Source: Oxalobacteraceae bacterium (GTDB lineage Bacteria; Pseudomonadota; Gammaproteobacteria; Burkholderiales; Burkholderiaceae_D). From it: a DNA stretch of 35,736 bases. A program made the translations under genes and the position numbers. The notes under the pieces are model-generated. The model was not told the origin of the DNA and ran no database searches. It saw nothing but the letters and a program-made list of their open reading frames with translations. The stretch lies in NCBI GenBank assembly GCA_023259175.1, contig JAHFQV010000008.1:1-35736 (forward strand), in the 5' to 3' direction. This document shows, piece by piece, positions 32,215-33,912 of this stretch (the stretch's first letter is position 1; each line of letters starts with the position of its first letter).

Positions 32215-32289
32215 GACCGAGTTTTAGCTTGTGAATTGCATACAAGCGAGATTAAAGAAACTACCAAAAACAATTCAAGGGGATTAAAT

Positions 32290-33285
32290 ATGCATATCGC
32301 TATCATCGGTGCTGGTTTGGCAGGACTTACCGCGGCTCGTCAATGTCAGGCACAAGGGCATCAAGTCAGCGTGTACGAAAAAAATGCAGAGGTAAGCGGT
32401 CGGATGGCGACACGCCATACTGAGCTAGGTGGTTTTGATCACGGCGCACAGTATTTTACGGCGCAAACAGATCGCTTTAAAAAGGAACTCGATGAATGGT
32501 GTCAGTCTTCTTGGGTGGTTGCTTGGGAAAGCAAGTTAGCCCAACTTGATCAGGGTCAAGTCAAGTCTTTACCCACAGGGCCGCAACGGTTCGTGCCCGT
32601 TCCGGGCATGAGTGCACTTGGGCGGCAACTGGCCGACGGCCTCGATGTGCATGCTGAGCAAAAAGTAACTGCGCTGGCGACACTTAATGGCAAATGGCTG
32701 TTGTCGATTCAGTCTGACTTGGTGCCGATAGCGGCCACAGCAGGCCCGTTTGATGCCGTTATTATTGCCACGCCTGCCGAACTCGCCTCGGGCTTATTGC
32801 GTGCACACGATTGTTCGTTCATGTCACTGATACAGCAGGTGAAGACCGTGCCTTGTTGGGCTTTGATGTTAGGTTTTCAGTCGCCACTGGAATTGCCGTT
32901 TGATGGCGCTTGGTTGACCAATTCGCGTTTGGCTTGGATCGCACGCGACACCTCTAAACCACTACACAGAGCGGGGGAACGTTGGATTTGTCACGCGACA
33001 CCCGAATGGAGTACCGAGCATTTTGATGACGATGCTGAACGGGTCAAAGAAAAATTGACTAAGGCGTTTCACCAAGGGACTGGTTCGGTAATTCAAGCCA
33101 TTCACGCTGTTGCGCATCGTTGGTCTTATGCACAAACCTTAATGCCCATCGATGCTGCTTGTGGCTGGGACGCGCAGAAGAAAATTGGTGTTTGCGGTGA
33201 TTGGTTCTCGTCCGGCTTAGACGGTGCGAGTCGCATCGAAAATGCATTTTTGAGTGGACTAGCCATGTCGCGGGAAATTCAATAA
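32290..33285 (+). CDS. Renalase-like FAD-dependent amine oxidase family protein
   Basis: A 331-residue FAD-binding protein of the COG3380/renalase-like group. The Rossmann motif IIGAGLAGLTAA (residues 4-15) binds the ADP moiety, and the conserved GGFDHGAQYFTA segment near residues 46-57 is typical of this group. The C-terminal segment KIGVCGDWFSSGLDGASRIENAFLSG is the classical flavin-binding GD motif of amine oxidases. The substrate is unknown; the group is often annotated only as NAD/FAD-dependent oxidoreductase. The ATG at 32290 follows an AAGGGGA ribosome binding site; a start at 32236 without such a site is rejected. Confidence 0.88.
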   Translation: MHIAIIGAGLAGLTAARQCQAQGHQVSVYEKNAEVSGRMATRHTELGGFDHGAQYFTAQTDRFKKELDEWCQSSWVVAWESKLAQLDQGQVKSLPTGPQRFVPVPGMSALGRQLADGLDVHAEQKVTALATLNGKWLLSIQSDLVPIAATAGPFDAVIIATPAELASGLLRAHDCSFMSLIQQVKTVPCWALMLGFQSPLELPFDGAWLTNSRLAWIARDTSKPLHRAGERWICHATPEWSTEHFDDDAERVKEKLTKAFHQGTGSVIQAIHAVAHRWSYAQTLMPIDAACGWDAQKKIGVCGDWFSSGLDGASRIENAFLSGLAMSREIQ

Positions 33286-33303
33286 AATAATCGTTTGATT
33301 ATT
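33286..33303. repeat. Short AT-rich hairpin after the FAD gene
   Basis: AATAATC (33286-33292) and GATTATT (33297-33303) form a perfect 7-bp stem with a GTTT loop directly after the stop codon. No GC content or T-run, so a terminator role is unlikely. It abuts the palindromic element at 33305-33407. Confidence 0.5.
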
Positions 33304-33304
33304 A

Positions 33305-33407
33305 GGGACTTTCGCAAAATTGCGCTGGCTAGGCGTGGAGCCGAAGGCAGTACTTTAGTACGACAAGGCGAACACAACAACGCCAGAGTCTGTTTTGCGT
33401 AAGTCCT
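33305..33407. mobile_element. Candidate miniature (MITE/REP-like) palindromic element
   Basis: About 103 bases whose ends are imperfect inverted repeats: GGACTT-T-CGCAAAA (33306-33319) pairs with TTTTGCG-T-AAGTCC (33393-33406), continuing with CTGG (33325-33328) to CCAG (33383-33386). The interior contains a perfect palindrome GTACTTTAGTAC (33350-33361) and a small GCC-GAA-GGC hairpin (33340-33348). It has no open frame and fills nearly all of the gap between the FAD gene and the acetyltransferase gene. The layout is that of a miniature inverted-repeat element or a large REP-type repeat, or a folded RNA; copy number in the genome is unknown to me. Confidence 0.5.
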
Positions 33408-33429
33408 ATATTGACGCAAAGGACAAAAT

Positions 33430-33912
33430 TTGAAACTCCATATTCGACCTGCTACTCCGGACGATGCTGCGCAAATTCACGCATTTATCGTCGAATTAGC
33501 GATCTATGAAAATGCTGAGCAGGAAGTTAAAGCCGACATCGGGCAAATTCGAAAAAGTATTTTTGGCGAAGGCACCCCGGTCAAAGCCTTGATGTGCATG
33601 CTTGGCGAAGAAGCGGTCGGTTTTGCCGTTTATTTCTATAATTTTTCAACCTGGCAAGGCCGCAAAGGCATGTACCTCGAAGACTTGTATGTCGCGCAAA
33701 AACATCGTGGCTTAGGGGCTGGCAAATATCTGTTAAAACATTTAGCCCAAGTAGCTCTCGAAGAGGGATGTGGGCGTTTTGAGTGGAGCGTTTTAGATTG
33801 GAATCAACCCGCGATTGATTTTTATAAATCAGTAGGCGCAAAGCCGCAATCGGAGTGGGTGCGTTACCGATTAGCAGGTGAGGATTTACTGAGCTTCGCG
33901 GAGAAAACCTAG
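33430..33912 (+). CDS. GNAT family N-acetyltransferase (diamine acetyltransferase-like)
   Basis: A 160-residue acetyl-CoA-dependent acetyltransferase. The GNAT fold is shown by the LEDLYVAQKHRGLGAGKYLL segment (pyrophosphate-binding RGLGAG), the following FEWSVLDWNQPAIDFYKSVGA motif and the WVRYRLAG tail, a pattern typical of the spermidine/spermine or thialysine acetyltransferase group. The start is a TTG at 33430 with AAAGGA at 33418-33423, 6 bases upstream. Polyamine or related amine substrates are likely but unproven. The upstream palindromic element ends 22 bases before the start codon, so it may contribute to the leader. Confidence 0.9.
   Translation: MKLHIRPATPDDAAQIHAFIVELAIYENAEQEVKADIGQIRKSIFGEGTPVKALMCMLGEEAVGFAVYFYNFSTWQGRKGMYLEDLYVAQKHRGLGAGKYLLKHLAQVALEEGCGRFEWSVLDWNQPAIDFYKSVGAKPQSEWVRYRLAGEDLLSFAEKT

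Follow-up and report, generated by a model that had tools for sequence, protein, structure and literature searches.

A short palindromic repeat of Undibacterium and its relatives is very probably a MITE that shares its ends with IS701-family insertion sequences

Among insertion sequences (IS), ISAba11 is placed in the IS701 group. Correia, ERIC and other bacterial MITEs use other partner transposases. ISAba11 spans 1101 bp by the positions that one report gives for it (PMC7760358), and the 5-bp duplications TATAG and ATTTA are recorded for it in another (PMC7885321). As characterized in a section of a review of bacterial MITEs, Correia, ERIC and other such elements are short, non-coding, mostly intergenic, hairpin-forming and present in many copies, and the repeat described here resembles them in each of these respects (PMC10969869). 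The term ‘IS701’ has 0 occurrences in the main text of that review. The same source lists Nezha, a MITE of cyanobacteria, among its references (PMC10969869). IS with the ends described below are common in that phylum according to the present analysis. REP and BIME sequences are likewise intergenic palindromes, and REPs are described as 20–40 bp long and tagged at one end by GTAG or CGTC (PMC3733652).

Here, we describe a repeat from the genome of an Oxalobacteraceae bacterium, in a 35,736-nucleotide stretch of contig JAHFQV010000008.1 that was analyzed as a whole (hereafter, the window). The repeat is an imperfect palindrome with bounds that were set by comparison with other copies (TA ... TA, with an extra G at 33305; Table 1). 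A preliminary description made from the letters of the window had drawn attention to its palindromic form, and this was confirmed: the 14-nt terminal arms pair at 13 positions (93% complementary), and positions 33290–33420 fold as RNA at −44 kcal/mol compared to −31.8 (SD 3.4) in shuffled sequences, with none of 200 shuffles as good. The opposite strand folds at −36.8 (z = −2.95), and one shuffle was equally good. The inner pairing, the internal palindrome and the 7-bp hairpin next to the element that had been pointed out were all recovered (Table 1), as was the closeness of the element to a TTG-started gene, with 21 bases between the two.

Table 1. Coordinates of the window copy, its parts and neighbors, and of related elements and inserts at other loci.
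Feature	Coordinates	Strand	Basis or remark
FAD-dependent oxidoreductase ORF, upstream of element	32236..33285	+	ORF list and domain search
Separate 7-bp hairpin AATAATC/GATTATT, between oxidoreductase stop and element, outside repeat-family alignment	33286..33303	.	Inverted-repeat search
MITE copy (strand is that of inner hairpin, family consensus)	33303..33408	+	Genome repeat matches, alignment; no exact 5-bp duplication
Left terminal inverted repeat GGACTTTCGCAAAA, 1 change relative to GGACTTACGCAAAA	33306..33319	+	Arm pairing, end-pattern search
Inner stem arm CTGGC, partner 33382–33386	33325..33329	+	Fold, alignment, covariation
Apical hairpin GTAC-TTTA-GTAC	33350..33361	+	Fold, covariation
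Inner stem arm GCCAG	33382..33386	+	Fold, alignment, covariation
Right terminal inverted repeat GGACTTACGCAAAA	33393..33406	-	Arm pairing, end-pattern search
GNAT acetyltransferase ORF, downstream of element, TTG start	33430..33912	+	PF00583 match, E 3.6e-18
Second MITE copies	L019 1241-1474; L078 884-1116; L020 1152-1474; L313 2403-2636		
~97-bp inserts	L226 1535-1631; L155 5127-5218; L076 2960-3056		

The earlier guess that the palindrome is an interspersed repeat of this bacterial group was borne out, since the element is present in many copies in both the host and its relatives rather than as a single copy. Screening of the source genome with a 117-base query returned 33 rows (E ≤ 1e-3), and these were merged by hand to 25 places by joining second pieces of one copy; two of the 25 (C91 and C68), truncated at contig ends, have flanks in common with C181. 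Of the 43 genus genomes, 39 have a match to the element; with at most 20 candidates scored in each, the numbers of copies are to be read as ‘at least’. The genus name used here, Undibacterium, was taken from a single plasmid match with 62% query coverage at 79.7%. The 14-base end, with at most one mismatch, matched 48 times in the source genome compared to 5 times for the reversed pattern. The exact 16-mer TAGGACTTACGCAAAA was detected in 57 of 343 sampled genomes of the family, representing 13 of 44 genera, while its reversed pattern had 0 matches in all 343. MITEs of ~103 bp with an interior of this type were found in other genera (L200, L202, L268, and L269). Among 12 viral contigs with the 16-mer, two carry the MITE (L404 2098–2201, with the duplication AGAAA, and L405 1932–2035), and such copies are a possible route between hosts. 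Two further arrangements were observed: a row of three MITE copies with a spacing of ~18 bases (G038:C220 754–1105) and a 197-bp element with the same ends as the window MITE and an unrelated interior (L081 514–710, in G036).

Comparison of the close relatives G004, G005, and G018 revealed three insertions, each of them carried by only one of the three genomes. The empty sites hold the target once and the filled sites hold it twice (AATAT, ATCAA, and, with one mismatch, ATTCT/ATCCT). Extraction of copies with at most three mismatches per end, from pairs spanning 26–259 bp, yielded 76 copies of 64–197 bp that have no transposase, a set in which a few pairs are doubtful and some insertions are shared. 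An exact 5-bp duplication flanks 33 of the 76 (mean of 0.4 and largest value of 3 in shuffled flanks), and a duplication with at most one mismatch flanks 47 (mean of 3.9 and largest value of 10). The target-site duplications that the preliminary description had proposed to look for are a property of the family, both at these 33 copies and at the three filled and empty sites; the window copy itself, with flanks TTATT and TATTG, has no exact duplication, and neither do 42 others among the 76.

These duplications were counted outside the TA ... TA, and wherever another offset or length was clearly more frequent than by chance, it overlapped this same 5-mer. This bears on whether the element is a MITE of the IS630 type, which would duplicate TA only. 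TA does adjoin GGACTT/AAGTCC at 53 left and 61 right ends of the 76 copies; however, TA is also part of the ends of the complete IS described below (G207 and G253), and the excess of repeats over chance lies in the 5-mer outside of it. Moreover, a scan for the IS630-type domain PF13358 in the 43 genus genomes identified it in four, and none of the 12 loci scanned has an IS, or a facing pair, with these ends. We therefore consider an IS630-type origin to be very improbable. A scan of DDE_Tnp_1 (PF01609) loci in 12 genomes (30 loci, with part of the rows from G036 included) also detected no IS with these ends.

More distant comparisons are consistent with movement. Five full copies in G014 have no counterpart in G016 across 200 kb of mostly collinear sequence, a recent gain; four of these sites were aligned, and their divergence is too great for a duplication to show. 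A near-identical block was also observed in this pair of genomes, in which positions 79694–102258 of the joined G014 stretch (L138–L140) and 79953–102496 of G016 (L148–L150) share 99.7% identity over 22.6 kb. Most other aligned pieces are 70–90% alike, and the block, which encloses a shared MITE copy, looks like a recent transfer.

A transposase with matching ends had been proposed as a further check, and complete IS with the same ends were identified in two genomes, while the source genome yielded no match. In G207 (L227 1733–2842), the ends TAGGACTTACGCAAAA bound a 1110-bp IS with the duplication TTTAC, and in G253 they bound a 1111-bp IS with the duplication ATGAA; in G237, the same ends surround 1112 bp with no duplication. 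The 344-aa transposase of G207 matches NF049921 (transpos_IS701_2; E 2.3e-122, above the cut-off) in addition to PF01609 and PF13546. The MITE is like this IS, and others with YAGGACTTACGCA ends, in its 16-bp terminal repeat (as seen in G207) and its 5-bp duplication, but differs in that it has no transposase and in that the interiors are unlike by eye. Since the agreement between the MITE and the G207 IS, as judged by eye, spans ~16 bp at each end and extends no further in, descent of the MITE by a simple internal deletion is not seen. ISAba11, as described in the reports cited above, and the partner IS are alike in length and duplication size.

Relatives of the IS are widespread. Paired YAGGACTTACGCA-type ends were identified in 35 of 40 examined loci (from a total of 80) when at most two mismatches in nine bases per end were permitted, and no end pair was found in the other five. 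An exact 5-bp duplication flanks 16 of the 35, with one end pair chosen per locus and pairs with a duplication preferred. IS with similar ends occur across several phyla, and named relatives include those of Noviherbaspirillum malthae (L322, probably identical to the G253 record), Methylomicrobium, Methylocaldum, and many cyanobacteria, in addition to MAGs labeled as Chloroflexi classes and Acidobacteria. Nine plasmid records match the IS, one of them over 97% of its length (Paraburkholderia aromaticivorans, 73.8%).

Dispersed copies, terminal inverted repeats, duplications with empty sites, a short length without a transposase, and ends in common with an IS together characterize the element as a MITE, very probably one that is moved with a borrowed transposase. 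The outer 16 bp match the ends of IS701-family IS (NF049921), the transposase of which would recognize both ends of the MITE in trans; joining to a new target by a 5-bp staggered cut would then duplicate 5 bp, most of them A or T. The whole is best explained as a MITE with IS701-family ends (the outer 16 bp), mobilized in trans and with a hairpin interior, to which we assign a probability of about 0.94. A REP or BIME element, spread by a RAYT (a tyrosine transposase of single-stranded DNA), would also be palindromic, mostly intergenic, and present in many copies, and the row of three copies noted above would fit such an element. Yet REP-type spread is hard to reconcile with the 5-bp duplications and empty sites, with a length of ~103 bp, with ends that read YAGGACTT and carry neither the GTAG nor the CGTC tag that is given for REPs in the passage cited (PMC3733652), or with the DDE-type, IS701-family transposase of the IS that has the same ends, and we regard it as highly unlikely. 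Among the three forms that the preliminary description had offered, the MITE stands, and the REP/BIME element and a structured RNA dedicated to the acetyltransferase gene (see below) are not supported.

In the genus itself, no transposase match was found in 36 of 43 genomes, including the source genome, a draft of 233 contigs from which a collapsed IS could escape. The matches in the remaining seven are all partial: G026 has two IS right ends with these terminal bases at contig starts, G014 has a transposase relic beside an end, and G011, G023, G029, G034, and G039 have short or remote transposase pieces. A scan for pairs of terminal inverted repeats in all of G014, all of G016, and the first 3.3 Mb of the 4.7-Mb G036 returned one candidate IS, with ends 0.8 kb apart, that turned out to be two MITEs flanking a gene. 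Because the IS is represented in the genus by fragments or remote matches only, most MITE copies are probably stranded there. From draft and finished genomes taken together, we infer that the MITE outlasts its mobilizer in most species.

The inner ~70 bp of the MITE form a hairpin with variable modules. Covariation, which had been suggested as a check of RNA folding, was evaluated in an alignment of 31 copies (30 of 36 representatives, none of which is >90% like another, plus the window copy). In the resulting 37-pair structure, 90.6% of pairings are standard (86.0 in shuffles), 15 pairs show double-sided changes (9.0 in shuffles), 63 cells have such changes (21.1 in shuffles), and the covariation score is 0.202 (0.121 in shuffles and ≤0.067 when slid), values that are favored by the derivation of the structure from the same alignment and strand and that come from related copies. 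RNAalifold, in its own setting, yielded a smaller set of 25 pairs, 10 of them with double changes. In 28 of 31 copies, the consensus strand folds more stably than the complementary one. G-U cells outnumber A-C cells (64 versus 23), with 24 of the 64 in the column pair 18–93; without that pair, the counts are 40 versus 23.

Orientation was evaluated in 98 copies with enough flank, of which a crude ORF call placed 9 inside ORFs, 48 between tandem genes, 19 between divergent genes, and 12 between convergent genes. The tandem-gene copies comprised 34 in sense and 14 in antisense, and re-runs with three ORF limits gave sense-to-antisense ratios of 32:13, 33:13, and 29:10 (p = 0.007, 0.005, and 0.003), with shared-descent insertions merged only at identical flanks. 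A second set of 40 copies from other sites in G014 and G036 gave 12:9, 13:8, and 13:5 (p = 0.66, 0.38, and 0.10).

These observations raise the question of whether the inner hairpin is selected as RNA, such that it is co-transcribed and acts on mRNA processing or stability, and sense copies are kept. The excess of double-sided changes and of the covariation score over shuffles, the better fold of the consensus strand, the surplus of G-U cells, and the sense lean of the first set would all be expected. However, the lean of the second set is not significant, the G-U excess derives in part from one column pair, the structure was derived from the very strand and alignment of related copies on which it was evaluated, and ORF calling was crude with shared insertions incompletely merged. 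Furthermore, template-switch correction of imperfect palindromes yields compensatory changes without selection on RNA. The compensatory change and sense lean are compatible with RNA selection and likewise with such correction, and we view RNA selection as possible but doubtful.

The interior is modular. Copies of 64–66 bp have no central hairpin, while others have extra modules past the first stem arm. A second MITE of 233–234 bp (323 bp with an insert) has the ends CCTAGAAACGGC, and one of its four complete copies (Table 1) has an exact 5-bp duplication (ATAAT). The stem arms CTGGCTAGGCGTG and ACAACAACGCCAGAG are common to the window element and the three second-MITE copies from the source genome (L019, L078, and L020); the fourth copy (L313) is from G036. 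Both kinds of MITE can carry, at equivalent positions of the core but in different species, an insert of ~97 bp with a three-way-junction fold: G004 and G005 have it in the first MITE, and the source genome has it in the second. The two kinds of insert are alike by eye at their first and last bases, are not joined by BLASTN, and have no Rfam match among the eight loci examined. One tentative interpretation, which we consider rather unlikely, is that the inner core has moved as a structured module from one MITE to another across different kinds of ends, and hence across different transposases. The core may be kept for working as RNA or single-stranded DNA.

The window copy lies between two genes of the same direction, and its transcript would probably form a stable hairpin just 5' of the ribosome site of the GNAT gene. 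Its position directly upstream of that gene and its strong fold would suit a riboswitch or other regulatory RNA acting on GNAT expression, and the hairpin does have compensatory change. However, no Rfam family reached its gathering score anywhere in the window, the element is scattered over many other sites, and the orthologous GNAT genes of the five relatives that were read (G001, G006, G007, G012, and G019) have a short upstream gap with no element, which makes such a dedicated role exceedingly unlikely. In G007, one lone end-like 16-mer (two mismatches) is present past the next gene from the orthologue. A promoter and terminator scan of positions 33200–33500 detected no site resembling a terminator and a single weak promoter-like site that lies upstream of the element. 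The AAGGA-like ribosome site of the GNAT gene, identified by eye, is outside the element. Given the position of this site, the lack of a terminator-like site in the scan, and the five relatives, we read the window copy as a passenger, with no evidence of control over the acetyltransferase gene.

The genes that flank the window copy are 118–246 kb apart and in opposite orientation in G001, G003, G006, G007, G012, and G019; lysS is next after the oxidoreductase in G006, G007, and G012, and other genes are found there in G001 and G019. Relative to these six genomes, the window copy is located at one junction of an inversion. Because gene order differs, no empty orthologous site for the window copy was found in the relatives examined. 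An inversion by recombination between two copies, with the window copy as its scar, was considered. The predicted second junction exists in the source genome, where lysS is beside a Cys-Met PLP enzyme (C223:15295–18065; L275 and L279), but it has no element, and recombination between two copies is thus unsupported. Insertion of the window copy at a pre-existing junction fits as well.

A search of titles and the opening lines of abstracts, largely outside subscription journals, found no published description of this MITE, from which we do not claim its absence from print. Collectively, our findings provide an abundant interspersed repeat of Undibacterium and its relatives with a likely partner transposase, and insertions of this MITE explain intergenic differences among species. 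Its compensatory changes, together with the inner arms shared between MITEs, make it a fair system for asking whether MITE interiors are passive or selected for structure.
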